Shown here piece after piece: positions 1-26,590 of a stretch of DNA of 44,574 nt. How positions within the stretch are numbered: the stretch's first letter is position 1; every line of letters starts with the position of its first letter. Both the position numbers and the translations under genes were made by a program. The notes under the pieces are model-generated. The model did no database searches and was not told the origin of the DNA. It worked only from the letters and a program-made list of their open reading frames with translations. The DNA lies in IMG/VR virus record IMGVR_UViG_3300022602_000174, positions 1 through 44,574 of that record; one strand, given 5' to 3'. The stretch comes from a virus.

Positions 1-251
1 AATTCGTTGGCTGTTGTTGGATAGTCTAATGTGACTTCCCAAACATTAACGTTGCGATTTCTGATTTTAGGAAAGTCTAGAGGAAATGATTGTACTGGAG
101 TTTGACCTGTTTTTTTGAAGTCGGCTACGCCGTATCGATCTAATAGTCCTTGTAGTTTAGTCTCATCCTCTGTAGTGACATCACCTGCTACCTTTACTCG
201 AAAGGTATAGGTTTTCTTGGATTCGGTAAGGTATTCTTTAAGTGATTTCAT
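1..251 (-). CDS. Partial gene: possible internal head protein with capsid-targeting N-terminus
   Basis: Only the first 83 codons lie in the window; the gene runs off the left edge. The protein begins MKSLKEYLTES and continues with a mixed charged sequence that I do not recognise. The N-terminus has the layout of the T4 capsid-targeting sequence of internal proteins (MKTYQEFIAE): M-K, a Glu, an aromatic residue, then a small/hydrophobic-x-Glu site. Leu-Thr-Glu at residues 8-10 fits the (L/I)-x-E consensus of the T4 prohead protease gp21. This suggests, by inference, a protein packaged in the prohead and trimmed at maturation. It is the last gene of the gp4-gp16 run and starts 7 nt after the gp16 stop. 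There is no Shine-Dalgarno sequence, but a GATAAATA late-promoter motif lies 7 nt before the ATG. It could instead be another prohead core or unrelated structural protein. Confidence 0.6.
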   Translation of the reverse strand, partial: MKSLKEYLTESKKTYTFRVKVAGDVTTEDETKLQGLLDRYGVADFKKTGQTPVQSFPLDFPKIRNRNVNVWEVTLDYPTTANE

Positions 252-257
252 AGTAAT

Positions 258-740
258 TTATTTATCCATCTTTTTCAGTTTCTCAAGGAGGCTATTACGG
301 TCTGTAATTAGATATCCTTCTGCTTCTATAGCCTCTGGATCTTGATTTCCTTGTTTTTTATCAATACCATACTTCTTAATCTGTAGGTCAATCATCTTGA
401 GTTTTTTATCTATTTTGTTAGATTTGGCAGTGATAGCGGCATTCATCATTTGTGCGGCAACTTCAAACATACGAGCACCATAACGTGCTTCTACGTTCAT
501 TCCTAGATCCATTAGGTCGTTATAGGCTTGTTCTGCTTTGTTGGCAAGATTATCTAACTCTGCATCACTTACATCACCTAAACCTTTAACTCTAGGCAGT
601 GCGGCGGCAATTTTATCAAACTGTTCTAGTTTATCTTCTAGACTAACCACTGTTTGTTCAGTAGATTCAACAATAGGCTCAATAATAGGTTCTGCTTCTG
701 TGGGAGCCACATTAAAAAGTTCTTCAAGTTTTTTTGTCAT
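258..740 (-). CDS. 16: Small terminase subunit, gp16-like
   Basis: 160 residues, close to T4 gp16 (164). The small terminase recognises the DNA concatemer and stimulates the large ATPase/nuclease gp17 at the prohead portal. The N-terminal 50 residues are acidic. The middle, about residues 60-125, is predicted helical and contains DLMDLGMNVEAR followed by a lysine-rich stretch with KIDKKLKMIDLQIKK, which I recognise from small terminases of T4-like marine phages. The helical core would be the ring-forming coiled coil. The gene lies between gp4 and the capsid-targeted-type gene, 8 nt after the gp4 stop, with only a weak TAAAG ribosome site. The large subunit gp17 is not in this window, so the usual 16-17 adjacency of T4 is broken here. 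The call rests on remembered family resemblance and length. Confidence 0.7.
   Translation of the reverse strand: MTKKLEELFNVAPTEAEPIIEPIVESTEQTVVSLEDKLEQFDKIAAALPRVKGLGDVSDAELDNLANKAEQAYNDLMDLGMNVEARYGARMFEVAAQMMNAAITAKSNKIDKKLKMIDLQIKKYGIDKKQGNQDPEAIEAEGYLITDRNSLLEKLKKMDK
259..266 (-). promoter_or_regulatory. Candidate T4-type late promoter, 7 nt before ATG
   Basis: Read on the minus strand this is GATAAATA, one base from the T4 late -10 consensus TATAAATA. It overlaps the end of gp16. The last A is separated from the ATG at 251 by AATTACT. If initiation follows T4 rules (motif at -13 to -6), the transcript would start about 2 nt before the ATG. Confidence 0.5.
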
Positions 741-1553: not shown

Positions 1554-3275
1554 TTAGGCAAAATCTGTATAGTCAGAAGAATCACTGCCACTATCGGCAT
1601 ATTGTGTTTCGTTCGAATCTTGATTATCTTGGTCTTCTATTGAACTTATTTCTGTATCTGGTTCACCATCTTCTGGAGGAAGATCAGGAGGATCAGTTGC
1701 TTCTACTTCATCTTCTGATTGGGCATTATCATCAAGTTGTTTCTGAACCAAGTATGTGTTTTGTGCATCGGCTACCGCGGCTTCTGCCGCTCCTATTTGG
1801 TCAGCAAGAGACTCGGGACTTGTGTATCCTGACGAATCCATCTTACCCATTATAGAATCAATTTCTGCTTGATCCCCGGCTGCTTTTGCGGCCGCTAGTT
1901 CTGCATCATATTGTTGTTGAGCCAGTTCTGCATCTGCTTTTTGTTTTTGTAAGGCATCAAGTTTAGCCTGTTGCTCTGCAACGTATGCCTGAGCATCGGC
2001 TAATGATCCTGTACCACTGCCACCTAATAAACTTCTTGTTGTTGCACCACCGGCAGTAACATTATTAAGCAATCTGTTTACTCCGCCGGAACCGGCATTT
2101 GTGTTTCCATTAGTAGAAGAATTACCGCCTAAGAAATTGCTAAACACCTTACCTAATCCTCCTGCAGATCCTGCAACAACATTAGACAAATTAGAAGTTA
2201 TTCCCGGTATACCGCTTGTACTAAGTCCCTTACCAGATGCTAGATTTCCTAATAAACCACCAGCAATACTATATGCTTCTGCTCCTAAACTTGCTTTACT
2301 AACATTTTTTAGATTATTGGCCAAATTTACAACACCTCTGGCTAACTGTAACGGGTTCAAACTTTTTGCACTCAACGGGTCATCTGTTGAGCCACCTAAC
2401 GGATACGCAAACTCTGCTCCGCCATTTTGGCCTCCCATTAATTCAGTAACACCTGCTACAATACCCCCAGGACCTAAAATACTGTTATTTCCGCTACCAA
2501 GAATACTAAGTGGACTAGGTTCTTGATCATAATGTATTGTAGCAAAACCTGCAGGGTTGTTTCCTTTATCTACACGACCAGTAGCATACTGAACCATTTC
2601 GTATGCGACTGTCATTTTATTTTCTAGTAATTTACTTTCTGCCTGATTCATTGTATCGTGAGCCCAATCTGTTATGATAGGATTAATAATACTGAATGCT
2701 GTAAACTGTGCTCTATTAAGTTGAAATATTTCTATACTATCAAAAAATGGTGCTGGAGTTTTAATTCCATTGTTTAGACCATAACTAAATGCATCAGTTG
2801 GTTCTGCCACTGAGTACGGTGTGTCCATATATTTTGAAGGCGGTAACGGTCTGTTTAATTGTGTATTATCTATGTCATCTGCAAAATAATATCTATAATA
2901 TGCTTCCCATAATGCAGTTGATGTATTATTATGGTCATCATGAAATGTCATCGAAATCGGTTGATATTCTATTTTACTTTGAACATACGCTTTTCTGTTG
3001 TATTGATTTAATACTTCTGTAGCCATTCTAAATTTAGGAAGTTCAGTTTGTTTAACTAACATTCCTATAGTCCGGCCATTGGTATTAACAAATTGCTCTA
3101 CCAATGGAACTTTCCTTGCATTTTGACTAATATTGATTACAACATAGTATAAGAATCCAATCTTAGGAACATACTTGTAATAGTCGTCTAGATACAATCT
3201 AGAGGCGTGAGCGTAACTCTTTAATTGATAAGGAGAATTAAAAACTTGTCCGAGAAAATTGTCAAATATACCCAT
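1554..3275 (-). CDS. Tube-fold (gp19/gp54-like) tail or baseplate protein with coiled coil and acidic tail
   Basis: 573 residues. Residues 25-135 resemble the tail-tube fold: an N-terminal strand region (KIGFLYYVVINI), a MLVKQTELPKFRM segment like the tube-protein loop after the first strands, and SKIEYQPISMTFHDD matching the conserved strand pair of gp19 relatives. Residues 215-255 (YATGRVDKGNNPAGFATIHYD) close the domain. The remainder is unusual: a Gly/Asn/Ser-rich linker (about 255-420), an Ala/Gln/Lys coiled coil (about 423-485) and a strongly acidic tail (about 512-573). T4 has one non-tube protein of this fold, the tube initiator gp54 (about 320 residues), so a baseplate or tube-terminus adaptor role is plausible but unproven. 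The gene starts right after a terminator and a CTAAATA motif, with no Shine-Dalgarno sequence. Confidence 0.6.
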   Translation of the reverse strand: MGIFDNFLGQVFNSPYQLKSYAHASRLYLDDYYKYVPKIGFLYYVVINISQNARKVPLVEQFVNTNGRTIGMLVKQTELPKFRMATEVLNQYNRKAYVQSKIEYQPISMTFHDDHNNTSTALWEAYYRYYFADDIDNTQLNRPLPPSKYMDTPYSVAEPTDAFSYGLNNGIKTPAPFFDSIEIFQLNRAQFTAFSIINPIITDWAHDTMNQAESKLLENKMTVAYEMVQYATGRVDKGNNPAGFATIHYDQEPSPLSILGSGNNSILGPGGIVAGVTELMGGQNGGAEFAYPLGGSTDDPLSAKSLNPLQLARGVVNLANNLKNVSKASLGAEAYSIAGGLLGNLASGKGLSTSGIPGITSNLSNVVAGSAGGLGKVFSNFLGGNSSTNGNTNAGSGGVNRLLNNVTAGGATTRSLLGGSGTGSLADAQAYVAEQQAKLDALQKQKADAELAQQQYDAELAAAKAAGDQAEIDSIMGKMDSSGYTSPESLADQIGAAEAAVADAQNTYLVQKQLDDNAQSEDEVEATDPPDLPPEDGEPDTEISSIEDQDNQDSNETQYADSGSDSSDYTDFA

Positions 3276-3280
3276 ACGAA

Positions 3281-3287
3281 TATTTAG
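3281..3287 (-). promoter_or_regulatory. Candidate late promoter CTAAATA(TT), 5 nt before ATG
   Basis: The minus strand reads CTAAATATTCGTATG, ending in the start codon at 3275. It lies just downstream of the terminator at 3294-3320, where a new transcript must begin. The same string, apart from one base, precedes gp13. With T4 late-promoter geometry the first transcribed base would be the A of the ATG. Confidence 0.55.
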
Positions 3288-3293
3288 TCGTAA

Positions 3294-3320
3294 AAAAAGG
3301 CCTGGATTACAGGCCTTTTT
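3294..3320. terminator. Bidirectional intrinsic terminator after gp19
   Basis: AAAAAGGCCTG at 3294-3304 and CAGGCCTTTTT at 3310-3320 form a perfect 11-bp stem around the 5-base loop GATTA. On the minus strand the stem ends in a run of seven T (through 3292), the form of a rho-independent terminator for the gp18-gp19 transcript. It begins 13 nt after the gp19 stop. Confidence 0.9.
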
Positions 3321-3333
3321 ACGAAGTTATATA

Positions 3334-3987
3334 TTAACCTCCAGTGCCACTTGAACCAGTTGCACTGTCTTGAGCAATACTTCTTCCGACATTTGCTCCT
3401 AATCCTACAGGGTTGCCACTCTTATCTACTTGGATTGCATTATCAAATTCAATTGTTAATGCAATTTCCATCGGTGTGCTTTCAGCGTATGCTAATTCAT
3501 TGTAGTTAACTGTTTGTAGGTAACAACCAACACATTCCCATGTTTCTAAAACTCCAGCATCAAATGCACCGTTGCCACCGTCTAACATTTCAATTCTTGT
3601 TAAGAATTTATAATCAGCGCCAGCATAAGCACTTGCTTGTTCGAAGAAATCAAATTGTTTCTGTAATTGTTCGCCAACTACTTTTGTAACATTACCGCCG
3701 ACATCATCTCTAACTGAAATTGCTAGCGATTGCCATGTTGGTTTACCAGCGTATTTAATTTGACTGTTGTACACATGGATAATTTGGTTTTCAAACTGAA
3801 CCTGTGGACGAGCCGCAGTAACTACTTGCTTTGTTAATTCGGTAACAGGTTTAGTAATTCCAAAATTTTCTAATGTTACTCTAAAACGATATTTTAATTT
3901 TGGCATCAACAAACCTTGAACGGTTGATGATTGTCCGCCACCCGCTCCCGGTACTGTATATCTGCTTAAACTTGATAGTGCCGCCAT
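3334..3987 (-). CDS. 19: Tail tube protein gp19
   Basis: 217 residues (T4 gp19 is 163). Polymerises inside the sheath into the tail tube through which DNA passes. Visible features are the Gly/Ser N-terminus, the strand LKYRFRVTLENFG (about residues 31-43), the FENQIIHVYNSQIKYAGKP loop and SLAISVRDDVGG, equivalent to the conserved strand turn of tube proteins. The C-terminal strands carry LETWECVGCYLQTVNY and PMEIALTIEFDNAIQ, the latter typical of gp19 (EVTLALDYW in T4). It follows gp18 directly and has a strong ribosome site, AAGGAG 7 nt before the ATG (3995-4000). Transcription ends at the hairpin just downstream. High translation is expected, since tube subunits are needed in large number. 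Confidence 0.9.
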   Translation of the reverse strand: MAALSSLSRYTVPGAGGGQSSTVQGLLMPKLKYRFRVTLENFGITKPVTELTKQVVTAARPQVQFENQIIHVYNSQIKYAGKPTWQSLAISVRDDVGGNVTKVVGEQLQKQFDFFEQASAYAGADYKFLTRIEMLDGGNGAFDAGVLETWECVGCYLQTVNYNELAYAESTPMEIALTIEFDNAIQVDKSGNPVGLGANVGRSIAQDSATGSSGTGG

Positions 3988-4010
3988 TTTATTACTCCTT
4001 GTCCTTTATA

Positions 4011-7000
4011 TTATAGTCCTGCCTTGATTGCGCCTGTGTTCTTTATACGCAATGGGATGTAGATAAATTCCACTGCCTTAATTGGCTCAATAGCGATATC
4101 CAACCAAAGTTCAGAACGATCGATTCTCGTTGGAGTGTTATTGCTTTCATCACAGACAACTGCGAAGTCGTTCAATGCTCTTTTGTTTACTAATTCTAGT
4201 AAGAAACTCTGTGCCGCACCTTTGATCTCGTTACGTGTAACTGTATCATTAGGTTCAAACAAGAATGGTTTCGCAAGAATTGCTAATTGTCGACGCATGT
4301 AACATACTAAACGTGCTACATTAATTCTGTCTAATGCACTAGCATTTCTAGCACGAGTGTACTGGCCGAAGTTAACAATTCCTGCACCCGATAAAGTTGC
4401 AATAGGATTAATCTTAACACCTGCTAATACATCTCTTAAACTGTTTGGTAGAGTAGTGCTCTTGAATTCGCCGTCTAGGATGTAACCAACTGCTGTAGCA
4501 TTGTCAACACCACCGCGTCTTGTTCCTGCTGGAGCAAACCATTCGTAACTCTTTTGATCGCTTACTGCAATTGTACGTAGCATCATATGACTTGGAGGAA
4601 CAACAATGTAGTTGCCTGTGTTGTCATTTGTGTAACCACTTGGGTAGAACATAGCCATGTACTCGTCATAACTTACGGCACCTGTGTCGTTATTGTCAAA
4701 TGCACCGTTAGTGTTGTTACCCCAAGCCGCTAAATCAGTACCTGTTGGTTGTAAGCGGAATGGTGTGTCACCGACTACGAACGCAGTCTGTCCACGATCA
4801 ACGTTAAATGCAATCATATTTTCAATTGCTTCAGGATAACCTGGGCAAGCAATTAAGTTGAATATAACAGAGTCTGTATCACGGATTGCTTGGTTAGTGT
4901 CTATTTGTGCTTTCATACCAGCAACAACAAATCCTCGTTGTGCATGGCGTCCAAATGCTCCACTGCCGTCTGCATTATTAGGACTTACAGAAATCCAACG
5001 ATCTGCATTATATGTCAATCCGCCGTTAGCACCGTTCATAACTTCGTTACCATAACGTGTATTTTCGCCATTATTAGAATTAATGTTGATGTAACTTGTT
5101 ACATACTTCTTAACATTAAAACCAGAACGACGTAGATTCCATAGTCTCATACCTTTTGGATATAGTGCAGGATCTGGTGCATCTGGGTCTAGATAGTTAC
5201 TGCTTAGTAGATCAACAATTGATGCTGGATCTACGTCAGTTCCCATTGTACCCCAACGTGCATCAGCAAATAACCAACCAGTCGGAGTTGTTTGATCTGT
5301 AGGATCTTGTGCTACCCAGTCAAGGTTAGAGCCGTCCCACACATAAATGTTTTGACCGTAACTATCGACGTCTGATGTATCAATCCAAATATCGCCATTT
5401 ACTAATGGAGTACCGTCACTTTGTGTAGTTGGTTCTACTGCGGCTACTAATGGCCCCATTGGATCTGATGTTGGGAATGCTGTTGAATCTTTATATCCAA
5501 CCCATGTTGTACCATTATTGTATAATACATCAACTTCGTCAACTACTGAACTATACCACAATGTACCATTTGCTGGATTTGTGTATGGAATTTCGGAAGT
5601 TGGCTCGTATACCAATGGTTTCCATGTACTTGCGTAGTATTGATATCCGTCATTTTCGTACTCACCGGCGGAATAGAAGTTTTGTGTTCCACTCTCAGTT
5701 CCGTCAGTTGCACGAGACCACGGAGTTAACTGCAAATAAGATGCTAACGGAGTATGAGTGCCATCTAAGAATTTAATTTCGCCACCTGCTGAGTGCTGAA
5801 TTGTTAAACTTGTTGCGTTTCCGCTAGAATCATATGATGCCGCACTTGCTGAAACATAAGTTAATCCTGCATTGTTAATATGAGAAATAACTGTGTCCAT
5901 TGTATCGCCATTGCTTAAACTAATTGTTACACCAGAACTATAATTTGCAACACCACCTGTTAATGTGCCTAGTCCTTCAATAATGTTAAATTGTGAAGAA
6001 GTAGTTACAGTTAAACTTGTTACAGTTGATGTAACCTGTGTTGGACCGGTTGTTGTTCTGCGGAAAATGTCAAATTCTGCGTATTGTGTATTATCTGATG
6101 CAGTACTCCATGCACCTGTACCTTTGTCATAATTTACTTCAACATAAATTGATCCTGTTGCAGGACTAGCAATTGTGTTAATAGCAGTTTGTCCGTCTGG
6201 ATAAACTGGAGCACTTACACTTGTAAATGCGGCAGTAGCGGCACTATAAACTTTAACTGCCCAGTTAGCACCTGAATTAGGAACTGTTGTTTTAACATAA
6301 ACAGAACCTGTTGGGTTTGTGCTGAAATCTGGATATTTAGTGTGTGGCCCTTGGAATAGTGCAGGAGCCGCATTTGATCCTGCTGTAAATCCCATTGCAA
6401 GAATCATAGCGTTGCCGCCAGTACCAGTGCCTTGAATATTAATACCACCATCTGGTGTTGTACCATTAGATTTTGCAGAACCATCAGCATAAATTTCTAG
6501 GTAACCACTTAAATTAACCTTGGCATTAAAACCGTGATTGTAACCAACTGAGTTAATTGAACTTGCTAACGCAATAAAAGTAGTTCCACTTAATGTAATA
6601 GTCTGACCATTGATAACAAATGTCTGACCATTGTAAGCAGTCATGTCTTGATTGGCCTTGGTACTTGTAACTACTGGCCATGAACTTTGCCATGCACTAG
6701 ATTTCCATGTAGAAGATGCACTAAAATTGCTTTCAACGTTGCTACCAATTTGTACCCAATTACCGTCTTTATTTTTATACCAGTAATGCACTTCTGTTGT
6801 TAGTGCAACAACAGCATAAGAACCGTTAGTACCAAAACTTGCCTTTGGTGTAAAGTTATCAGAAGTGGCAGTTGCTAAATTTGTATTGTCGATTACTAAA
6901 GGAACTTTGTTTGTAAATGCCTTGTTAGTATTGCTCCATTCAAAAATACCCCATTTAGTATTTGAAGTATCTAACCAGTATGTTCCATCTACTGGATCAC

Positions 7001-7382
7001 CTTCTGGTCTAGAAGATAGAGGCAATAATGAACCTAAATCTAAGTCAGCGCGGACAACATAGGCTCTTGAACTAACACCTAGTAAACTATATGCGGCTTG
7101 TAATCCGTATTCGTTTAATTCTCCACCGTTGATTGGATTGCCACTTGAATCTGTGTAGAATAATGGAGTTCCAAATGTATCTGTTAAATCACGTTGGCTA
7201 GTGATTAGATAAACTTTACCTGCATTTGTTGGAATAGTACCTTGAGCGGTACCGGTTCCGCTTGCATTTTCCTTATTGCTCTTACTCGCTACGAAGATCA
7301 TAGGAGTTGTTGACGGAGCCGCTGGTAGGTAAAAACTCTCGTCTATAACTGATATCTGTACGCCTGGTGAATTTAAAGCCAT
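4011..7382 (-). CDS. 18: Tail sheath protein gp18, greatly enlarged
   Basis: 1,123 residues against 659 in T4. It forms the contractile sheath around the gp19 tube. The conserved ends are clear: residues 1-115 (SPGVQISVIDESFY, then FGTPLFYTD and YGLQAAYSLLG), and about 735-1123 with NLIACPGYPEAIENMIAFN, SYEWFAPAGTRRGG, INPIATLSGAGIVNFGQYT and the closing strands up to IKNTGAIKAGL. Between them about 600 residues are inserted. They hold several small Trp/Gly modules (residues 129-155, 601-632, 660-692; weaker ones near 355-385 and 405-425). They also hold two beta segments with a hook-type IN pattern (245-335 and 464-550). The insertion probably projects outward, as the variable domains of T4 gp18 do. 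A CTAAATA promoter lies 32 nt upstream, with TGGGAG 6 nt before the ATG. Confidence 0.93.
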   Translation of the reverse strand: MALNSPGVQISVIDESFYLPAAPSTTPMIFVASKSNKENASGTGTAQGTIPTNAGKVYLITSQRDLTDTFGTPLFYTDSSGNPINGGELNEYGLQAAYSLLGVSSRAYVVRADLDLGSLLPLSSRPEGDPVDGTYWLDTSNTKWGIFEWSNTNKAFTNKVPLVIDNTNLATATSDNFTPKASFGTNGSYAVVALTTEVHYWYKNKDGNWVQIGSNVESNFSASSTWKSSAWQSSWPVVTSTKANQDMTAYNGQTFVINGQTITLSGTTFIALASSINSVGYNHGFNAKVNLSGYLEIYADGSAKSNGTTPDGGINIQGTGTGGNAMILAMGFTAGSNAAPALFQGPHTKYPDFSTNPTGSVYVKTTVPNSGANWAVKVYSAATAAFTSVSAPVYPDGQTAINTIASPATGSIYVEVNYDKGTGAWSTASDNTQYAEFDIFRRTTTGPTQVTSTVTSLTVTTSSQFNIIEGLGTLTGGVANYSSGVTISLSNGDTMDTVISHINNAGLTYVSASAASYDSSGNATSLTIQHSAGGEIKFLDGTHTPLASYLQLTPWSRATDGTESGTQNFYSAGEYENDGYQYYASTWKPLVYEPTSEIPYTNPANGTLWYSSVVDEVDVLYNNGTTWVGYKDSTAFPTSDPMGPLVAAVEPTTQSDGTPLVNGDIWIDTSDVDSYGQNIYVWDGSNLDWVAQDPTDQTTPTGWLFADARWGTMGTDVDPASIVDLLSSNYLDPDAPDPALYPKGMRLWNLRRSGFNVKKYVTSYININSNNGENTRYGNEVMNGANGGLTYNADRWISVSPNNADGSGAFGRHAQRGFVVAGMKAQIDTNQAIRDTDSVIFNLIACPGYPEAIENMIAFNVDRGQTAFVVGDTPFRLQPTGTDLAAWGNNTNGAFDNNDTGAVSYDEYMAMFYPSGYTNDNTGNYIVVPPSHMMLRTIAVSDQKSYEWFAPAGTRRGGVDNATAVGYILDGEFKSTTLPNSLRDVLAGVKINPIATLSGAGIVNFGQYTRARNASALDRINVARLVCYMRRQLAILAKPFLFEPNDTVTRNEIKGAAQSFLLELVNKRALNDFAVVCDESNNTPTRIDRSELWLDIAIEPIKAVEFIYIPLRIKNTGAIKAGL

Positions 7383-7414
7383 TTCAATCTCCCATATAAT
7401 GGTTTTCTTGCTAA

Positions 7415-7421
7415 TATTTAG
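7415..7421 (-). promoter_or_regulatory. Candidate late promoter CTAAATA(TT) for gp18
   Basis: The minus strand reads CTAAATATTAGC, the same nine-base core as before gp13 and the tube-fold gene. Here it is followed by a leader of roughly 27 nt that includes TGGGAG. The gp18-gp19 unit would thus be expressed from a promoter with a conventional 5' leader. Confidence 0.55.
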
Positions 7422-7444
7422 CGGATATGATTGAAAAACACCGG

Positions 7445-7452
7445 CTTAAATA
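7445..7452 (+). promoter_or_regulatory. Weak late-like motif before the HNH-like gene
   Basis: CTTAAATA on the plus strand, 31 nt before the ATG at 7484. It lacks the expected base before TAAATA, so it is a weak match. The only ribosome-site-like sequence for the downstream gene is AAAGGGCGG, just before the ATG. Confidence 0.3.
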
Positions 7453-7483
7453 CCTATGAAAAGGGCACCAAAAAGGGCGGTAT

Positions 7484-7819
7484 ATGCGTAATACTTGTAA
7501 AAAATGTCAGCAAAGACCAGTTGCAGTTAACTATCAGAAGAACGGTCGTACTTACTATAGATCAATGTGTGACCATTGTTCGAGAGGATATCTAACTGAC
7601 CAACCGCAGTGGACAAAGTTAGGATACAAGAAAAAAAATTCTTGCGATAAATGTGGATTCAAATCACCACATAAAGAAATTTTTAAAATATTTCATGTTG
7701 ACGGAAATTTATCCAATGCTAATCCTGCCAATCTAAAGACGATATGTTCTAACTGTTCTATAGTGATTCAAAAAGAAGGGGGTCGGTGGCGTCAGGGCGA
7801 TCTCCGACCAGATTTTTAA
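7484..7819 (+). CDS. Small HNH-like zinc-finger protein, possibly inactive nuclease
   Basis: 111 basic residues. Two zinc-binding pairs form an N-terminal ribbon (Cys5/Cys8 with Cys29/Cys32) and a second set (Cys54/Cys57 with Cys88/Cys91) frames an HNH-type treble clef. In it HVDGN (71-75), Asn83 and Leu84 match the usual H-x-D-G-N...N-L pattern. Two usual ligands are missing: the position before His71 is Phe70, and the residue after Cys91 is Ser, not His. It may therefore bind nucleic acid without efficient cleavage. I recall similar proteins ending in GDLxPD in T4-like marine phages, so this is a resident small gene rather than a fresh homing endonuclease. It is alone on the plus strand between gp18 and the kinase, and its last 62 nt overlap the kinase 3' end antisense. 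Confidence 0.7.
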   Translation: MRNTCKKCQQRPVAVNYQKNGRTYYRSMCDHCSRGYLTDQPQWTKLGYKKKNSCDKCGFKSPHKEIFKIFHVDGNLSNANPANLKTICSNCSIVIQKEGGRWRQGDLRPDF

Positions 7820-8429
7820 CATGATGAAATAGTTCGTCAATTGTTCCATCATTAGATAGTACATAATCAAATTTAGTTCCAACCCATGCTGTTTCTGAAG
7901 CATGAATTCCTAATTTCTTAAGGCGCTCAGTGCTTAACATCCAACTCATATTACCCTTACCTTCGTTAGCATTTACAGCATCTTTATACCATTCTGGTTC
8001 TGGTCCACGCTTTACACGAATAACGATTCCACCGGCATCTTTGATTGATTTAATTTCATTAGGAAAACGACAATCACTGATAACAATATCGTCTGTACTG
8101 TTACGTAGTTTGTTTTCTAATGCGGCAATCCACATATCATCGTGAAACCCGTTACGGCATACTTCTGTGCCCCAGTATTGTAAGACCCAGCGGGGGGTAA
8201 GGTCGGGCATACCTAAACGTTCTGACCACCACGGATCTACCTGTTCACGCCATTCACGGGCTTGTTTAGTACGTCCTTCTAACATGGTTCTGTCCCAACC
8301 GAATACCATACTAACCGCATCTTTAAGACTGTTAGCAAATGATTCGCGTCTAAAACCGTGAAAGTTAGTAAGATAATCAGCAATAGTATCTTTGCCAGAA
8401 CCGATAAATCCGCATACACCTATAATCAT
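7758..8429 (-). CDS. 1: Deoxynucleoside monophosphate kinase (T4 gp1-like)
   Basis: 223 residues from the chosen start; T4 gp1 is 241. It phosphorylates dNMPs to dNDPs to feed phage DNA synthesis in the cytoplasm. The P-loop is at the very N-terminus: MIIGVCGFIGSGKDT, with Gly7, Gly10, Gly12, Lys13 and Asp14. Further family features are the FANSLKDAV segment, a substrate-binding region RTKQAREWREQVDPWW and DIVISDCRFPNEI (strand, Asp, Arg). The start at 8429 is preferred over an in-frame ATG at 8450 because GGAG lies 5 nt before it (8435-8438) and the fold begins there. It sits 29 nt after the gp13 stop, probably on the same transcript, and is a metabolic gene inside a structural region. The 3' end overlaps the opposing HNH-like gene. 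Confidence 0.88.
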   Translation of the reverse strand: MIIGVCGFIGSGKDTIADYLTNFHGFRRESFANSLKDAVSMVFGWDRTMLEGRTKQAREWREQVDPWWSERLGMPDLTPRWVLQYWGTEVCRNGFHDDMWIAALENKLRNSTDDIVISDCRFPNEIKSIKDAGGIVIRVKRGPEPEWYKDAVNANEGKGNMSWMLSTERLKKLGIHASETAWVGTKFDYVLSNDGTIDELFHHVKNLVGDRPDATDPLLFESL

Positions 8430-8458
8430 AGTATCTCCAGTAGATACCATAGTGTATA

Positions 8459-9217
8459 TTATCCTATAACAAAAGTCAACGGCTGTTGGTTATCTTTATT
8501 GTTAATTAGGTCTTGCTCTAATATTTCCATTTCGGCTTTGCCCTCACTCTTGAGTGCGGCTCCGTTTAATTGTGTACCGCCCTGAGGACTAGCAATAGTA
8601 GCAAACTTTTCTCGAGCTTCGCCTAAGATAATCTTTGCTCGTGCTGTTGCGTAGTCTCTAATCCAAATACCTGCCCATGTATCCTGGAACAGAATAAAAT
8701 CTGGTTTATAATTGTACATCCAAAGAAGGACATTTTCTTCACCGCGTGGACGTTGTGTAATTCTTAACTTTTTAGTAACTGAATTCCAATCAAAGTTAAT
8801 AAACGATCCGAACATTTTACCAACTAAATTTTGGTATTGTGAGAACATCATATAGGTTGCTAACCCGCCCATATTAGAACTACTTAACAAATATGTGTTA
8901 GAGTAGGCTAGGTTGAATGGTTCAAAAAGTGTACCTCCATCACCCCCACCCGATCTTGAACCAATACTACGTCGGAAAATCTGTCTAACCTGCATAACTT
9001 CCGGTGCTAACTGGTACTCGTTAACATCTGTTTGTAGGGTTAGGTACCCAAAACTTTCTTCTACAGAGTTTTGACTACGTTGTCTGTACTTGCGTAATGC
9101 GATGTCTATAGCCAGATCATAGTGTTTAGGATCTAACTCAACATCAATCATACCATCACCTAGGGAGGTTTTGATATAATCAACAACTTTTTGTTTTTCT
9201 GATTCAGTTTCGTTCAT
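8459..9217 (-). CDS. 13: Neck protein gp13 (head completion)
   Basis: 252 residues (T4 gp13 is 309). In T4, gp13 and gp14 form the neck that closes the filled head and accepts the tail. Visible are an N-terminal helix pair (KQKVVDYIKTSLGDG, YDLAIDIALRKYRQR), a beta middle (FGYLTLQTDVNEYQLAPEV and KKLRITQRPRGEENVLLWMY) and a C-terminal helical part, WIRDYATARAKIILGEAREK, with a closing acidic helix (KAEMEILEQDLI). This arrangement is shared with cyanophage gp13. A longer frame exists to 9313, but it would overlap gp14 head to head. The ATG at 9217 follows CTAAATA by 5 nt and is preferred. There is no Shine-Dalgarno sequence. gp14 starts 28 nt away on the other strand. Confidence 0.78.
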   Translation of the reverse strand: MNETESEKQKVVDYIKTSLGDGMIDVELDPKHYDLAIDIALRKYRQRSQNSVEESFGYLTLQTDVNEYQLAPEVMQVRQIFRRSIGSRSGGGDGGTLFEPFNLAYSNTYLLSSSNMGGLATYMMFSQYQNLVGKMFGSFINFDWNSVTKKLRITQRPRGEENVLLWMYNYKPDFILFQDTWAGIWIRDYATARAKIILGEAREKFATIASPQGGTQLNGAALKSEGKAEMEILEQDLINNKDNQQPLTFVIG

Positions 9218-9222
9218 ACCAA

Positions 9223-9229
9223 TATTTAG
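9223..9229 (-). promoter_or_regulatory. Candidate late promoter CTAAATA(TT) for gp13
   Basis: The minus strand reads CTAAATATTGGTATG, ending in the gp13 start codon. It differs by one base from the string before the tube-fold gene (3281-3287). One base separates it from the plus-strand motif at 9231-9238, giving a very compact divergent pair. Confidence 0.55.
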
Positions 9230-9230
9230 C

Positions 9231-9238
9231 CATAAATA
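9231..9238 (+). promoter_or_regulatory. Candidate T4-type late promoter CATAAATA for gp14
   Basis: CATAAATA is one base from the T4 late consensus, followed by TACTACT and the gp14 ATG at 9246. No Shine-Dalgarno sequence fits between motif and start. It is divergent from, and almost touching, the gp13 motif. Confidence 0.55.
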
Positions 9239-9245
9239 TACTACT

Positions 9246-10478
9246 ATGCCAAGACTATCTATGTATCGTCCTGAAAAGGGCAATGATTTTCGCTTTTTAG
9301 ATCGTGTAATCAACGAAGAATTTCAAGTGGGTGGAGTGGATGTTTACATTCACAAATATACTGGACCTGTGGATCCTTCTACAGGCGATGCTACCCCATC
9401 AACTCCGAATGCAAGTTCTGCAGGAGTCTTAGGAATCCAAGATGTACTTTTCATGGAAAACAGAGATAGGAATTATGATCCTAATGTGTACATAACTCGC
9501 GGCATTTACACCATGCAGGATATAGATTTTAATCTAATGCAGTTTGGATTTTTCTTAAACAACGACAATGTAATGATCACATTTCACCTTCGTAATACTG
9601 TAGATACATTAGGACGCAAACTAATGGTAGGAGATGTGTTAGAGTTGCCTCACTTAAAAGACGAGTACGGACTAACAGATACTATGATGGCTTTGAGAAA
9701 GTTTTATGTTGTATCAGAAATATCTCGAGCCGCAACGGGATATAGCCAAACTTGGTATCCTCATCTTCTTCGTGCTAAATGCGAGCCAATGGTTAATGCT
9801 CAAGAATTTGCACAGATACTTAATCAAGAAGTATCTGCAGATCCTAATGCTGGAATTCCAACTGGCGTTCCGGCCGGTACTACATTGGCAGATATATTTT
9901 CAATGTATAATCAAAACATTGCTATCAATACTCAAAACATTGCACAGGCAGAGCTTGATGCTCCAGAAAGTGGATACGATACTAATCAATTCTACGTTCT
10001 ACCAGTCCGCGATGATCATTCTTTAGATTTACAAGATGCTAGTGACGAGGAAAGAGACGCTAGTGAAGATGATCATACTGTAGATGCTAGTTCTGTGTTC
10101 GTAAATCCCGACAAAACTGTTTATGTAGGATACTTAACAGGTGACGGAATACCTCCAAATGGTGCACCGTATTCATCTGGAGTTGATTTTCCTTCTAATC
10201 CTTATAAAGGTGCCTTCTGTTTGAGAATAGATTATATGCCTAACAGACTGTTTAAGTTTGATGGAAAGAACTGGGTGTTCCAAGAGACTAATGTTCGCAT
10301 GACGATGACCAATAAACCTGCAGACAGTAAACCTGCAAATAATAACATCACAAGACAAACAGAAGTAACAGGGTTTATTAATAACAATACAACATCAACA
10401 ATCAATGGTAAAGTTATACCTGAACGTCAATCATTAAGTAAGGCGTTAAAAACTAACAAACCAAAGGCAGATAATTAA
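9246..10478 (+). CDS. 14: Neck protein gp14, with C-terminal extension
   Basis: 410 residues; T4 gp14 is 256. It joins gp13 in the neck between head and tail. The N-terminal 190 residues match gp14 of T4-like cyanophages: MPRLSMYRPEKGNDF, a FQVGGVDVYIHKYTGP strand pair (26-41) and YDPNVYITRGIYTMQD (77-92). TFHLRNTVDTLGRKLMVGDV (112-131) and the TWYPHLLRAKCEPM region follow. Residues 235-410 are extra. This part is acidic (DASDEERDASEDD) and carries a small module with FPSNPYKGAF (315-324) and FKFDGKNWVFQ (336-346), which resembles the N-terminus of the 1,939-residue fibre. The gene is on the plus strand with gp15, opposite to gp13. The gp15 ATG follows one base after its stop. No Shine-Dalgarno sequence. 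Confidence 0.85.
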   Translation: MPRLSMYRPEKGNDFRFLDRVINEEFQVGGVDVYIHKYTGPVDPSTGDATPSTPNASSAGVLGIQDVLFMENRDRNYDPNVYITRGIYTMQDIDFNLMQFGFFLNNDNVMITFHLRNTVDTLGRKLMVGDVLELPHLKDEYGLTDTMMALRKFYVVSEISRAATGYSQTWYPHLLRAKCEPMVNAQEFAQILNQEVSADPNAGIPTGVPAGTTLADIFSMYNQNIAINTQNIAQAELDAPESGYDTNQFYVLPVRDDHSLDLQDASDEERDASEDDHTVDASSVFVNPDKTVYVGYLTGDGIPPNGAPYSSGVDFPSNPYKGAFCLRIDYMPNRLFKFDGKNWVFQETNVRMTMTNKPADSKPANNNITRQTEVTGFINNNTTSTINGKVIPERQSLSKALKTNKPKADN

Positions 10479-12362: not shown

Positions 12363-12695
12363 TTACCAGGGGCGAGGTAAATTTGCAACAGTTGGTTGAA
12401 TCTGCTGTGCTATTTGATTTGTTAAAATCTGTTTGAGTTCTGCTACTGTATCATCACCGAGTGCAGAAGTTACCATCTGTTCTACAGCAGGTTGTGTAAG
12501 TTGATTAAACGGAATGAAAGTAAGAGGATTGGGCTCTCCTAATCCTACATTACCAAAATATTGTGCACCATGTCCATCTTGATCTGTTACCGATAAGATA
12601 TATTCTACATTGTAAACAACATTAGTTAAGTCATTTAATGCAGGATGAGCAAGGAATCTTCCAAATTCCCATGTATAGGTTAAAACAGCATCCAT
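12363..12695 (-). CDS. Small fibre-neighbour protein, paralogue 1 of 3
   Basis: 110 residues, function unknown. It starts with LTYTWEF, has a strand NVVYNVEYILSV, then PNPLTFIPFNQLTQPAVEQM, and ends in QPTVANLPRPW. The same order (TYTW near the start, a VV-V-W strand, a D/N-P-x-x-F-(I/V)-P-(Y/F) turn followed by a helix) is found in the genes at 12699 and 13321. The three are therefore diverged tandem copies of one small, probably mostly beta, domain. I recall a family of unknown function of this pattern, often ending in a PW motif, beside tail fibre genes of marine phages. A virion or fibre-assembly role is inferred from position. GAGG lies 8 nt before the ATG. Confidence 0.65.
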   Translation of the reverse strand: MDAVLTYTWEFGRFLAHPALNDLTNVVYNVEYILSVTDQDGHGAQYFGNVGLGEPNPLTFIPFNQLTQPAVEQMVTSALGDDTVAELKQILTNQIAQQIQPTVANLPRPW

Positions 12696-12698
12696 TGA

Positions 12699-13290: not shown

Positions 13291-13298
13291 TATTTATA
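13291..13298 (-). promoter_or_regulatory. Perfect T4 late promoter motif TATAAATA
   Basis: An exact match to the T4 late -10 consensus on the minus strand, in the 49-nt gap between the 138- and 74-residue genes. The predicted start would be near 13285. That leaves a leader of about 14 nt that contains AGGAG. Confidence 0.7.
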
Positions 13299-20759: not shown

Positions 20760-23700
20760 TCAGTTTGTAACCTCGCTTGTTTGAACATTTGCAACAAACC
20801 TTATAGTGTTTGCGCCGTCACCCTTACCTTGAACGATTAAACCGCCGTTTGATGAATCGGCTATAACCTGACAATCCCAAGACGCAACACTTGCCCAAAT
20901 TTTTGTCTTATTAACAACACGAAGTATTGTAGTTCCAGCACCATTATAACGGCTAATTACACCGTCAAATTGCCAAGCACCTTCATCTGAACTTGTTACT
21001 GACCTTGCACTTACTAACATAGTAAACGCATACGTTGAATTATCAGGCATTATCAGTTGATTAACTGTTACAGGACTGCTATTATCTGTAGTTAAACTAG
21101 TAAATGCAGATCCAGTAATCGATCTTCTCAACACATATATACCTGCTTGTGCATCTCCTAGTGTAGCAAATGATCCGTTTGCAAATATTTTAGAACCAAC
21201 AACACCTCTAGTTGAAGCACCGCTACCTACGGTTACATCGTTACCATTGATAAATGTATTTCCAGCAATGCCAACGCCGCCACTAACAACTAATGCTCCA
21301 TTAGATGATCCAGTAGATATAGTAGTTGCCTGTATATGGGTATCACCGCCGATGTATGTGTTTCCACTGATACCGGCACCACCGGCTACAACTAGTGCGC
21401 CCGAACCCGTATCTAAACTTTCTGTCTTACTCTTAGCAAACAAGTTACCTGACAAATCTATAGATACTGCTATTGTACCAGTTGTTGGTGTACCTCTGCT
21501 GGTTATTGTAGCATTTGTTGAGAAGTTCAATCCACCGGATGAAAATACTGTGTTATAACTAGCACCTGCTGTCCATAATCCAACACCTTGTCCGAGATTG
21601 TTTGTTGTAATTTGTAATACTTGAGTACCACTAACGCCTTCATTGTAAATGCCGCCAGTTGTAGGCAAGTAAATTGTAGCGTTTGATCCAGCAATTACAG
21701 CACTAGTCGCAGTCAATGCACCACTAATAAACACATTACCGCCAATACCTGCGCCACCTGTAACTACTAATGCACCTGTTAATGAACTAATTGAATTATT
21801 TGAGTTCTGTGTAACTATTCTACCAGCGAAATAAGCATCACTACCAACACCTAAACCACCAACTACTTGCAATGCTCCGCTTGTTGGAGATATAGCATTA
21901 GTCGAGTTAAGAATTGTTATTATTTGATGAGTTGAACTTCCTCTGCTTGTAATGCTATCAAATGTAGAAGTATTCCAAATTGTAATAACACCAGACGATG
22001 TGCTAACTGCTGTGTCAGTACCTGCGACAATATTAGCAACATAACCTCCACCACCTCCACCACCACCGCCGGTAAGAACATTCTGTCCGTTAACGGTTAA
22101 GTTACCTGCTACATTGACATTACCGCCGACACCAACTCCTCCTGCAACAATCAGGTCTCCGGTAAATGTACTCGTAGATTGTGTTCCGCCGACTAGGGTT
22201 AACCCACCAAATTTTGCAAGTCCAAATGTTCCTGTGTTGGCAAAACTTGGAGTGTATGTTTCTGTGCCACCAGGGTAAACATTAGTCTTATAGACCAATA
22301 CCTGTGTAGCATTATCCATACCTAAGAAGGAATGGTTATCATATGTTGTATCTGCGGTAGAAGTTGTACTGTAATGTAAAATCAATCCACGATCATACCC
22401 GTCATTAACTGATAATGCTGTATTTCCAACAGCACCGCCTAGTTCTATAACAGGATCAACAATATAAGTCTGTGTTGAATTTACAAATGTCTGAGTACCA
22501 AATACCTGTAAGTTCCCATAAATGGCTGTATTGCCGCCAACAACTAAATTTTTGCTAATGCCAACACCGCCGCTAACAATCAAAGTTGCGTATGTGCTAG
22601 AAGTAGCATCTTGACCATTATTAAGCGTGATAATTTTATCACTGATAGCACCACGTGAAGTGACACTTTCTAATGTGCTGTTGTCCCAAACAGTAATATT
22701 TCCGGTTGATGTACTAACAACTGTATCAGTGCCGGCTGTTATACTTAATACACCAGTATTGTTGATGCTAAATGTAGCAGTTGTCCCTGTTGAACTTATA
22801 ATCGTTACATTAGTTCCTGTACCAGCAGTCGGTAACACAGTAGTAACAACTCGTTGACCTCTGTCATATACGCCTTGTCCTGAATAAATTGAACCGTTAA
22901 CACCTAATCCGCCGGCAATAGTTACGGCACCGGTTAGTGGAGATGTAGCAGCCACAATGCTTGCAAATGTCGCTGTACCGTTTACAATTAATGTTCCGGT
23001 GTTTAATATAGCACCAGTTACAATAGCAGACGATGTTTCTGTTCCACCAATAAACACAGACCCGCCAATACCAACTCCACCAATTACAGTTAATGCACCT
23101 GTAGTTGTTGATGTAGCAGTTATATATGACCAAATGCCAATAGCATTAGTTGTAGTACTACCATTGTCTGTTACATTTTGTAAAGTAGCAATGCTTGTGA
23201 TGTTTACTTGCCCAACACCACTCGTAGGACTAATAGAAATGCCAGTACCTGTGGTGATTTTTGTTACACCGTAACTACCGATTGACGAAGTTGTTAATAC
23301 TTGTGCCCCATTAGAATAAATGTTTGCACCATATATACTACCAAAGACATTCAATTGTCCAGAAGGTAACAAATCCATCAATATTGTTGATGTTGTTCCA
23401 GTCTGATATTGTCTCCAATCAAACGATATTCCGGAACCAATATTTAAATTTACAAAGTTTACTTCATTAGTTAACCCGCTGAGATTTGTATTAAATCCTG
23501 CAAGAGAGTTTACTACTAGTCCGCCATTAATAAATCCACCACTACCTACATTTAAAGCACCGCCAATACCAACACCACCAGCAACAATTAGTGCACCTGA
23601 ACTTGTTCCAGTTGAAATTGTAGAAGTATTAATTGATATGATGTTTGTTGTTGAGTTTCCTCTGCTAGAAACTGACTGCAATGTAGAAGTATCAGATACA

Positions 23701-26579
23701 ACAACGATACCAGTTGTGGTGTTTACACTAATATCAGTGCCGGCTTGAACTTGAGTAACAACATATAGTACAGCCGTTTCTTGAGTAATTACTCTAGAAT
23801 TATGATCGTATACAGCACCTGCGTAAATGTTTCCACTAACTCCCAGCCCGCCGTTAACAATAACAGAACCTGTATTAACTGCTGTACTTTCAACATTAGC
23901 ATTGAAGTATACAGTTGAACTTGTGGCATTGCCTCGACCAGTTACAGTTGCTAAAGTAGAAGTATTCCATACTGTAACAACACCGGTATTTGTGTTTACT
24001 ACTGTGTCAGTACCTGCATATAATGCCGTTAAACCTTGCTGTCCTAATGTACCTTGAGTAATAACAGGGCTACCATTAGAATATATATTCTGCGCATAGA
24101 TGTTACCTTGTATACCGGCACCACCTGTGACTACTAATGCACCCGTTGTAGTACTATAGGCTTGAGCAGTGCTGTAGATATAGGTAGTAGCAGTTGTTAA
24201 TTGTAATCTAGGAGTATTGTCAATCAATAATGATGTAATACTACCAGTAGTTAATAATTTAAATCTAGAAATTAAACTACCATCTTGGAAATTTAAAACA
24301 AATGCAGGATGATAAGATGGTGCACCAGTTGATGTGTTTGTATCAGTAATTGTGATTGTAGGGTAATTGCCAGTTAACGAAAGATCTGCACCGGCAAAAA
24401 TATTTCCAAATAGATTTAAATCGCCACCTGCTCCAATTCCTCCGCCTACAACGAGTGCACCTGATGTTGTACTAATTGAAGTGGTAGTATTGACTAAAGT
24501 TAATCCGCCAAATTTAGCACTTCCATAATCACCTAAGTTTATGAATCCATTTGTACCTGCTAAGAAAGGAACACCTGGTAACACATTTGTCTTAAACAAC
24601 AGCGTCTGGGTAGCATTGTCCATACCGAAAAACGCATTGTTTGTATAAGATATGTTAGATGTTGCAGTAGTGCTATAATGGAAAACCAACCCTCTATCAA
24701 ATCCATCGTTGGCCAGTATTGAAGTTCCGTCTTTTCCGCCGCCAAGTTCTATAATAGGATCAGTTACATAAGAAATAGTTGAATCAATATATGTTGCTGT
24801 TCCAAATACTTGTAAATTTCCAAATATTGCCGCACTGCCACCTACATTTAAATTACCACCAATACCGACACCGCCTGCAACTGTTAGTGCACCTTGTGTA
24901 TACGTGTTACTTTGTAAAGTATTATTAAGTGTAATGACTTGATTTGTATAACTTCCACGCTGTGTAATACTATCAAGTGTACTAGTATTCCATACAATTA
25001 CATCACCTGTTGATGTGCTTACTGCGGTATCAGTGCCTGCTCTTAACGAAGTCACTCCAAACGATCCTAGACTTGCCTGAGTAATAACTCGACTACCTTG
25101 ATCGTATATAGCATAACCATATAAATTGCCGCCAATACCAACACCACCGGCAACTACTAGAGCACCAGTTGTTGTAGAAATTGATACCGCAGTACTTAAA
25201 ACTGTAGTTGTATTTCCTATCAAGTTTACATTGAAGCCGTTTGATCCAATCTGTACTAAAGCATTTGGATTAATATTAACAACACCGTACCCGCCGTTTC
25301 CGATAAACATACTGTTATCGCCACCGAGTATTAAATTACCACTTGGCAATAACGAAATATATGCACTGTTGTTTCCAGCAAATAAATTACTTGAGTATAA
25401 CGTACCACCAATGCCTACACCACCTGCTACTGTTAATGCACCAGAAGATGTACTAGTAGATGTTAGTGTACTATAAACATTTGATTGAGGCAGTTGTAGT
25501 ACATTATTAAATGTAGTAATTGTTAACCCGCCGATATCAATAGTACTTGAACTAATGTATAGTGTGCCCCATCGTCGAGTCGGAGATCCTAAATTATAAT
25601 ATCCGCCAGATTGTGGCAGAATATTCCCCATAGTAGATGTACTATTAACATTCAAATTATAAGAAGTTAATAAACTGGCTGTTACAGTAGTAGCATTTAC
25701 AGTAACTGCATTTACTGAAGCAACTGCTGTTACAGTATTCGCATTTATAGTTCCGCCAACGTAAACATCTTGTCCAATACCAACACCGCCAGCAACTACA
25801 ATAGCACCTGAATTTGTACTTGTAGAATTTACATTATCGGTTGATGTGAAAATTGCATTAACAATAAATGTATTAACTGCTAAATCTCTTACATAGCCGG
25901 TACCGGCAATAATATTTCCAATAGATGCTGTGTTATTAACATATAAATTACCGCCAACGCCTATACCACCTGCAACTTGTAATGCACCTGAACTTGTACT
26001 ATTTGATTGCGTTATGTTAGAAATTAGTATTGTGTTAGTAGTCGAATTACCTCTGTCAGTTACTGTTTGTAATGTACTAGTATTCCATATAGTTACAGCA
26101 CCTGTACTTGAACTAATTGCTGTATCAGTTCCAGCAGTTAAACTTGTAACTCCGTAATTTCCTAGTGTTTGTAGTGTAACAACACGGCTGCCTTGATCAA
26201 ATAATGAAGAAGCATACAATGCTCCTTGAATTCCAACACCGCCGACTACAGTTAATGCACCAGTTGTAGTGCTTGTTGAAGTAGCCGTTCCTAAAATGCT
26301 TACAACATTAGTAATTGTGAGATTATGATCTCCGTAGATATCACCACCAACATATAAATCTTCACCAATGCCAGCGCCCCCATATACAATTAGACCGCCG
26401 CTGTTTGTACTTGTAGAATTAGTAGATGTAGTAACAATTACTCGATTGGCCGTTAACGGATCAAAACTTGTAATGCCGCTTTGAATCTGCCAACCATTTC
26501 CGTTCCATATCCAGGTACGGTTACCGATTGTATAGGTTTGACCTACATATGGATTTGAGGGAAAGTTTAAATTAGCCAT
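20760..26579 (-). CDS. Large repetitive fibre-type protein (19 Gly-rich repeats)
   Basis: 1,939 residues. The N-terminus holds a small Trp module (FPSNPYVGQTYTI, then TWIWNGNGWQIQ; residues 6-33) resembling one in gp14. The body has about 19 copies of a 25-30 residue repeat of the form STSTTTGALTVAGGVGIGG followed by a strand such as NLYVGG. About seven copies of a second unit, GSRVIT...AGTDTAVSTSTG...VWNTSTL, alternate with it. Two copies of a roughly 110-residue domain with VDPVIELGG and YDRGLxxHYST are inserted. A nine-Gly run occurs near residue 1500. The last 140 residues (from about GDAQAGIYVLRR to TSEVTN) are a different beta domain that I know from the ends of other phage tail proteins. 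Likely a trimeric beta fibre; the receptor is unknown. Only 4 nt separate a TTAAATA from its ATG, and there is no clear ribosome site. Confidence 0.8.
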   Translation of the reverse strand: MANLNFPSNPYVGQTYTIGNRTWIWNGNGWQIQSGITSFDPLTANRVIVTTSTNSTSTNSGGLIVYGGAGIGEDLYVGGDIYGDHNLTITNVVSILGTATSTSTTTGALTVVGGVGIQGALYASSLFDQGSRVVTLQTLGNYGVTSLTAGTDTAISSSTGAVTIWNTSTLQTVTDRGNSTTNTILISNITQSNSTSSGALQVAGGIGVGGNLYVNNTASIGNIIAGTGYVRDLAVNTFIVNAIFTSTDNVNSTSTNSGAIVVAGGVGIGQDVYVGGTINANTVTAVASVNAVTVNATTVTASLLTSYNLNVNSTSTMGNILPQSGGYYNLGSPTRRWGTLYISSSTIDIGGLTITTFNNVLQLPQSNVYSTLTSTSTSSGALTVAGGVGIGGTLYSSNLFAGNNSAYISLLPSGNLILGGDNSMFIGNGGYGVVNINPNALVQIGSNGFNVNLIGNTTTVLSTAVSISTTTGALVVAGGVGIGGNLYGYAIYDQGSRVITQASLGSFGVTSLRAGTDTAVSTSTGDVIVWNTSTLDSITQRGSYTNQVITLNNTLQSNTYTQGALTVAGGVGIGGNLNVGGSAAIFGNLQVFGTATYIDSTISYVTDPIIELGGGKDGTSILANDGFDRGLVFHYSTTATSNISYTNNAFFGMDNATQTLLFKTNVLPGVPFLAGTNGFINLGDYGSAKFGGLTLVNTTTSISTTSGALVVGGGIGAGGDLNLFGNIFAGADLSLTGNYPTITITDTNTSTGAPSYHPAFVLNFQDGSLISRFKLLTTGSITSLLIDNTPRLQLTTATTYIYSTAQAYSTTTGALVVTGGAGIQGNIYAQNIYSNGSPVITQGTLGQQGLTALYAGTDTVVNTNTGVVTVWNTSTLATVTGRGNATSSTVYFNANVESTAVNTGSVIVNGGLGVSGNIYAGAVYDHNSRVITQETAVLYVVTQVQAGTDISVNTTTGIVVVSDTSTLQSVSSRGNSTTNIISINTSTISTGTSSGALIVAGGVGIGGALNVGSGGFINGGLVVNSLAGFNTNLSGLTNEVNFVNLNIGSGISFDWRQYQTGTTSTILMDLLPSGQLNVFGSIYGANIYSNGAQVLTTSSIGSYGVTKITTGTGISISPTSGVGQVNITSIATLQNVTDNGSTTTNAIGIWSYITATSTTTGALTVIGGVGIGGSVFIGGTETSSAIVTGAILNTGTLIVNGTATFASIVAATSPLTGAVTIAGGLGVNGSIYSGQGVYDRGQRVVTTVLPTAGTGTNVTIISSTGTTATFSINNTGVLSITAGTDTVVSTSTGNITVWDNSTLESVTSRGAISDKIITLNNGQDATSSTYATLIVSGGVGISKNLVVGGNTAIYGNLQVFGTQTFVNSTQTYIVDPVIELGGAVGNTALSVNDGYDRGLILHYSTTSTADTTYDNHSFLGMDNATQVLVYKTNVYPGGTETYTPSFANTGTFGLAKFGGLTLVGGTQSTSTFTGDLIVAGGVGVGGNVNVAGNLTVNGQNVLTGGGGGGGGGYVANIVAGTDTAVSTSSGVITIWNTSTFDSITSRGSSTHQIITILNSTNAISPTSGALQVVGGLGVGSDAYFAGRIVTQNSNNSISSLTGALVVTGGAGIGGNVFISGALTATSAVIAGSNATIYLPTTGGIYNEGVSGTQVLQITTNNLGQGVGLWTAGASYNTVFSSGGLNFSTNATITSRGTPTTGTIAVSIDLSGNLFAKSKTESLDTGSGALVVAGGAGISGNTYIGGDTHIQATTISTGSSNGALVVSGGVGIAGNTFINGNDVTVGSGASTRGVVGSKIFANGSFATLGDAQAGIYVLRRSITGSAFTSLTTDNSSPVTVNQLIMPDNSTYAFTMLVSARSVTSSDEGAWQFDGVISRYNGAGTTILRVVNKTKIWASVASWDCQVIADSSNGGLIVQGKGDGANTIRFVANVQTSEVTN

Positions 26580-26590
26580 ATCTTATTTAA

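Follow-up and report, generated by a model that had tools for sequence, protein, structure and literature searches.

Late transcription in phage T4 is a textbook system whose mRNAs carry leaders with ribosome-binding sites, and the cI mRNA of phage lambda is leaderless. T4 late promoters, served by the sigma factor gp55, the co-activator gp33 and the clamp gp45, place TATAAATA at -13 to -6 (PMC1524935, PMC2988020), and a CTAAATA form is known in Aeromonas phage Aeh1 (PMC1524935). Leaderless mRNAs have been described in mycobacteria (PMC4633059), and 5'-terminal AUG codons are bound by E. coli ribosomes according to work cited in PMC5312081. Here we analyze late-promoter-like motifs that directly abut start codons in a fragment, 44.6 kb long, from an uncultivated jumbo phage of the T4 superfamily (IMG/VR virus record IMGVR_UViG_3300022602_000174; 44,574 nucleotides (nt), GC 38%; "the window" denotes this whole stretch). 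Our analysis indicates that gp55-type late promoters are very probably fused to the start codons of a subset of late genes, predicting mRNAs that are leaderless or nearly so.

The arrangement resembles T4 late promoters in its core motif, in the late virion genes downstream and in the gp55 encoded by relatives of the window, yet in T4, Aeh1, Syn9 and the other phages tested the motif stands 12-35 nt ahead of the ATG, with a leader, whereas here a subset of motifs lies at 4-8 nt. The jumbo phages Atu_ph07, Phosso and PA5oct share the late motif but have only the distal, leadered class. Known bacterial and phage leaderless mRNAs share with the present genes a promoter-ATG distance that leaves no leader, an AUG and the lack of a Shine-Dalgarno site; they differ in that here the promoter belongs to a phage late sigma factor, dozens of families are involved, many of them structural, and a leadered class stands beside the leaderless one in one genome. 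Both parts, the T4-type late promoter and the leaderless mRNA, were known beforehand and their combination is new. Searches of an open-access paper library, which leaves subscription journals aside, turned up no account of T4-like or jumbo phages with leaderless late mRNAs.

Promoter motifs beside start codons

We define d as the number of bases between TAAATA and the ATG, and call motifs at d = 4-8 proximal and those at d = 15-35 distal. Five window genes have TAAATA 4-7 nt from the ATG and no Shine-Dalgarno site. The original prediction had listed four, at 251-, 3275-, 9217- and 9246+, as free of a ribosome site; all four prove exact, with no AGGA, GGAG or GAGG before these ATGs, and its count missed the fifth at 26579-. 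If the TAAATA frequency that relatives show 36-73 nt upstream of their starts is taken as the chance rate, the window (21 genes x 5 positions) should hold 0.13 sites, giving P = 1e-5 for at least four and P = 3e-7 for at least five. The sites, their genes and one contrasting distal promoter are as follows.

259..266, minus strand: late-promoter-like GATAAATA, 7 nt before the ATG at 251, overlapping the end of the upstream gene 258-740; site GATAAATA-AATTACT-ATG, d = 7 counted from TAAATA
3..251, minus strand: virion structural protein gene (phrog_14802), predicted near-leaderless, running off the window
3292..3320, minus strand: intrinsic terminator AAAAAGGCCTGTAATCCAGGCCTTTTTTT, whose T-run stops 16 nt before the ATG at 3275
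3281..3288, minus strand: late-promoter-like ACTAAATA, 5 nt before the ATG at 3275; site CTAAATATTCGT-ATG, d = 5
1554..3275, minus strand: tail-tube-like structural gene, predicted leaderless
9223..9230, minus strand: late-promoter-like GCTAAATA, 5 nt before the ATG at 9217; site CTAAATATTGGT-ATG, d = 5
8459..9217, minus strand: neck protein gene (gp13, head-tail adaptor Ad2), predicted leaderless
9231..9238, plus strand: late-promoter-like CATAAATA, 7 nt before the ATG at 9246; site CATAAATATACTACT-ATG, d = 7
9246..10478, plus strand: virion structural gene (phrog_11591), predicted leader of 0-3 nt
26584..26591, minus strand: fifth proximal motif ATTAAATA, tentative, 4 nt before the ATG at 26579; site TTAAATAAGAT-ATG, d = 4
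20760..26579, minus strand: gene for a protein of 1939 amino acids, downstream of the fifth motif
13291..13298, minus strand: for contrast, a distal late promoter of the usual kind, TATAAATA at d = 19, with AGGAG between it and the ATG at 13271

The window's spacing recurs in its relatives, among which genes were called identically in all genomes, controls included, as the longest ATG open reading frame (ORF) of at least 60 codons. Across five long relatives (G001-G005; G001 is 328 kb and G002 344 kb), 93 of 1,177 genes have a proximal TAAATA, and the spacings peak sharply at d = 5. By genome, G001 to G005 in order, the counts are 35/365, 24/408, 22/245, 7/80 and 5/79, against same-gene background expectations of 3.2, 1.4, 2.1, 0.5 and 0.3 (P = 1e-24, 3e-21, 1e-16, 1e-6 and 9e-6). 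The distal motifs form a second, separate class, and d = 9-14 stays at background level; such bimodality would be expected if genes either dispense with a leader or have one with room for a Shine-Dalgarno site. The check that the original prediction proposed, a spacing peak at 5-7 nt in relatives, thus returned a strong, bimodal and lineage-specific signal, and a distal class with Shine-Dalgarno sites coexists in the same phages. None of seven control phages exceeds expectation at d = 4-8 (T4 0, Aeh1 0, Syn9 0, phiM12 0, PA5oct 1, Atu_ph07 2, Phosso 1) and all seven have the distal class; SCTP-2 and RaK2, for which only raw pattern counts were made, show no clear proximal excess. In the window itself, TATAAATA occurs once on both strands together against 7 expected, an uninformative count.

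Among the 15 hexamers composed of its letters, TAAATA itself ranks top at d = 4-8 (94), followed by ATAAAT (48) and AAATAT (34), both one-base shifts of it. An A is preferred before the core, the flanks are similar in the proximal and distal classes, and the 12 bases upstream of the core, where the profile stops short of the -35 region, hold at most about 0.3 bit of information. Shine-Dalgarno 4-mers precede 0-9% of proximal genes versus 55-78% of distal genes, an absence that we down-weight as independent proof because the motif fills that zone. The proximal genes of G001-G004 and the window fall into 65 families, 30 of them found in at least two genomes, and the proximal class is often kept across orthologues or changes to distal with a leader. 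Their products include neck, tail tube, terminase, head or capsid and fibre proteins, as well as several without known function. Homologues of the gp55-type sigma factor are present in G001-G005; the window fragment is not expected to include one. As a separate observation in G002 (L187-L204), the variant core TAA(C/G/T)TA peaks at d = 5, with 6 genes versus 0.3 expected per position, and this genome may tolerate more variation in the late motif.

Individual window sites differ in weight. The layout at 251 recurs in L381-L383, and its orthologue is proximal in G003 and distal in G001 and G002; the site is weaker by itself because the motif runs into the final codons (..Asp-Lys-stop) of the upstream gene. 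Taken singly, the site at 26579, and perhaps that at 251, could have arisen by chance.

Leader length and the divergent gene pair

At 3275, a terminator with a fold of -21.6 kcal/mol (z = -4.8) stands in front of the promoter. The orthologues in G001 and G003 are likewise proximal with a terminator in front, and across the family TTTTTTTACG(A/G)CTAAATATT is kept right after a terminator-like stretch down to 43% protein identity. Among the 88 proximal genes, 10 have a terminator close upstream, compared with 11 among 1,009 other genes (p = 1e-6), the T-run in clear cases ending 10-15 nt before the proximal ATG, and a further one third of proximal genes have a divergent neighbour. Because of these terminators and divergent genes, longer leaders are excluded at many loci. 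Overlap with the upstream gene is found for 6% of proximal versus 44% of motif-less genes.

The bases next to the ATG point to where transcription would begin. A pyrimidine occupies -1 in 79 of the 88 proximal genes, compared with 47% elsewhere (p = 1e-15), and at d = 5 it does so in 42 of 42 genes, T in 88%. Bacterial transcription starts favour a pyrimidine at -1 and a purine at +1, so T|ATG looks like an initiator, and the T4 geometry of -13 to -6 sets +1 on the A of the ATG when d = 5. At d = 7, T(-4), A(-3), C(-2) and T(-1) are conserved, giving TACT-ATG, and transcripts from these sites are as likely to carry a 3-nt leader (ACU-AUG) as to lack one. Proximal start codons are distributed 95:4:1 among ATG, GTG and TTG, the latter two at background level.

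The genes at 9217 and 9246 share a 28-bp intergenic region (9218-9245) with a promoter motif on each strand. Among scorable IMG/VR relatives, the motif of the 9246 orthologue lies at d = 7 in 70 of 75 and at d = 8 in the other five, and that of gp13 on the opposite strand at d = 5 in 69 of 72; the paired spacings persist in about 70 relatives at 57-95% identity, with 26-40 bp, mostly 28, between the divergent ATGs. The 9246 product, here called gp14-like from its position beside gp13, has its nearest cultured relatives in Atu_ph07, Phosso and PA5oct (32-37% identity) and no relatives in 84,980 GTDB species genomes. Its alignment to the annotated proteins of these three phages begins at residue 1, and their orthologues carry the late motif about 20-30 nt upstream of the homologous start codon, which is preceded by AGGAG, GAGG or AGGGAG. 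The window lineage has, in effect, the promoter of PA5oct, Atu_ph07 and Phosso minus its leader.

A second promoter type follows the same design. In G001-G003, TTGACA-N16-18-TATAAT promoters have a proximal mode of their own at d = 6, with 18 sites at d = 5-8 as against 0-1 in each of the seven control phages. Since the sigma70 -10 hexamer ends at -7, d = 6 again sets +1 on the ATG. The shift of one base between the modes of the two promoter types (p = 5e-5) is what a geometry of -12..-7 versus -13..-6 predicts, and this prediction did not have to come true. From the placement of these promoters, early-type genes of G001-G003 look leaderless too, as a prediction. Examples of full sigma70-type promoters (TTGAC..TATAAT) in these genomes that end 5-8 nt before an ATG are L191:8521+, L190:15906+ and L251:12035+.

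Competing readings and translation machinery

We propose that the proximal motifs would be gp55-type late promoters abutting start codons. Equipped with the late sigma factor of the phage, the host RNA polymerase would carry out gp55-dependent initiation at CTAAATATTCGTATG, at the A of the ATG when d = 5 and 0-3 nt before it at other spacings. The mRNAs of a late-gene subset encoding neck, tail tube, terminase, capsid and fibre proteins would thereby be leaderless or almost so, and ribosomes would take the 5'-terminal AUG without Shine-Dalgarno pairing. In other late genes, this motif would lie 15-35 nt upstream and give a leader that carries a Shine-Dalgarno site. From the motif and the presence of gp55 genes we infer that gp55 acts at the proximal sites, and leaderless translation would be expected in the host of the window phage. 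The leaderless reading made in the original prediction gains support from the terminators, the -1 pyrimidine, the sigma70 mode and the orthologous starts with normal leaders. Several points weigh against it: the strict +1 at d = 4 sites falls inside the codon, so that some slack in start choice is needed; the T4 geometry is an assumption for a diverged gp55; the exact 5' ends are predictions from geometry and terminators; gene calls rest on a crude longest-ORF rule; and 41 SAR11-family genomes show no excess of sigma70 promoters near ATGs, a comparison of low power.

The motif might instead act in translation, as an A/U-rich enhancer ahead of the AUG in ordinary leadered mRNAs, with no promoter involved. 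A/T-rich starts without Shine-Dalgarno sites are common among phages, and only 35-43% of motif-less genes in G001-G004 have a Shine-Dalgarno 4-mer. We nevertheless consider this improbable, given the identical core 15-35 nt upstream of genes that do have Shine-Dalgarno sites, the terminators that end 10-16 nt from the start codon of gene 3275 and of some ten further genes, the lack of room for leaders between divergent pairs, and the true sigma70 promoters placed alike at a different, geometry-matched spacing. A real possibility for some sites, though the lesser one, is a short leader of 3-6 nt from initiation 2-3 nt upstream, a sub-case of promoter-start codon fusion: T|ACT-ATG at the d = 7 sites of the 9246 class offers a second pyrimidine-purine start, and start choice may shift by a few bases, but d = 5, the commonest spacing, has the well-placed T|ATG initiator with a pyrimidine in 42 of 42. 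The functional difference is little, because neither form fits a Shine-Dalgarno site.

TAAATA is common in A/T-rich intergenic DNA, and with a core of merely six bases in a 38% GC genome, chance had to be considered; it has a negligible claim on the motif class, since same-gene rates predict 10-20 times fewer sites, orthologous sites are conserved and the peak is absent from seven other phages, including T4 and the A/T-richer PA5oct. The same-gene background, the anagram hexamers and these controls together led us to reject base composition. It is also very unlikely that the ATGs are wrong and that a codon further downstream, with its own Shine-Dalgarno site, is where translation begins: the starts were chosen here by ORF, but the 9246 start matches the annotated starts of PA5oct, Atu_ph07 and Phosso that carry Shine-Dalgarno sites, and the deposited starts of the cultivated Pelagibacter phage HTVC008M agree with our proximal sites.

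A wider version of promoter-start codon fusion, which we think rather unlikely, is a genome-wide leaderless programme in which sigma70 (d = 6) and late (d = 5) promoters alike are fused and the host ribosome is tuned by the phage, for instance through its own bS21 and without the initiation factor IF3. An IF3 gene is present in Atu_ph07, Phosso and RaK2 (W01, W05 and W06), phages without a clear proximal class, and is lacking in phages with one (G001, G002 and HTVC008M); the fit is a lead that rests on three IF3 phages. We rejected bS21 as the discriminating explanation, as leadered relatives carry it too. A genome query with bS21 returned mostly Planctomycetota, two Albidovulum metagenome-assembled genomes and one Pelagibacteraceae contig, and is uninformative for the host.

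Pelagimyophages and other window features

The pelagimyophages HTVC008M, Mosig and Melnitz resemble the window in promoter-ATG spacing, clearly so in HTVC008M, and belong to Kyanoviridae, apart from the window's lineage on the gp55 tree. Thirteen of 171 HTVC008M genes have the motif at d = 4-8 (P = 8e-8), ten of them at d = 5, and the motifs match deposited starts, for example 18943+, 18916- and 19456+. The genes encode the DNA end protector, head closure, tail tube cap, tape measure and baseplate. Mosig is weaker overall, with 6 proximal genes (P = 0.03), and Melnitz is not significant genome-wide (3 versus 2.1 expected); in each of the three phages, however, the end-protector gene (gp2) is proximal. 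On the gp55 tree, proximal phages do not form one group, the pelagimyophages being the second one, and well-supported branches force at least two changes. Late-promoter prediction was unsuccessful in pelagimyophages (PMC7029224), and the promoter-ATG layout may be the cause, as searches that expect a leader are predicted to miss fused promoters. Fusion would couple the choice of transcription start to that of translation start and would alter the effects of promoter mutations. Because HTVC008M grows on a cultivated host, the claim is directly testable. A further question is which hosts are efficient enough in translating leaderless mRNA that a virus can depend on it for its virion genes.

Other features of the window were noted in passing. 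At 7484-7819 (plus strand), a 111-amino-acid ORF with Cys pairs (CxxC) and no Pfam match runs antisense to the end of a dNMP kinase gene and is possibly an HNH-type nuclease. By eye, a 2326-amino-acid fibre-like protein (13737-20717, minus strand) has long Gly-Ala-Thr repeats of collagen-like character, its C-terminus being reminiscent of a peptidase-type tail fibre chaperone domain, and three neighbouring small proteins of 110, 107 and 138 amino acids (12363-13022 and 13321-13737, minus strand) look like diverged copies of one another. An open frame of at least 3,292 codons (34695-44573, minus strand) runs off the window end and encodes a giant protein that probably belongs to the virion.

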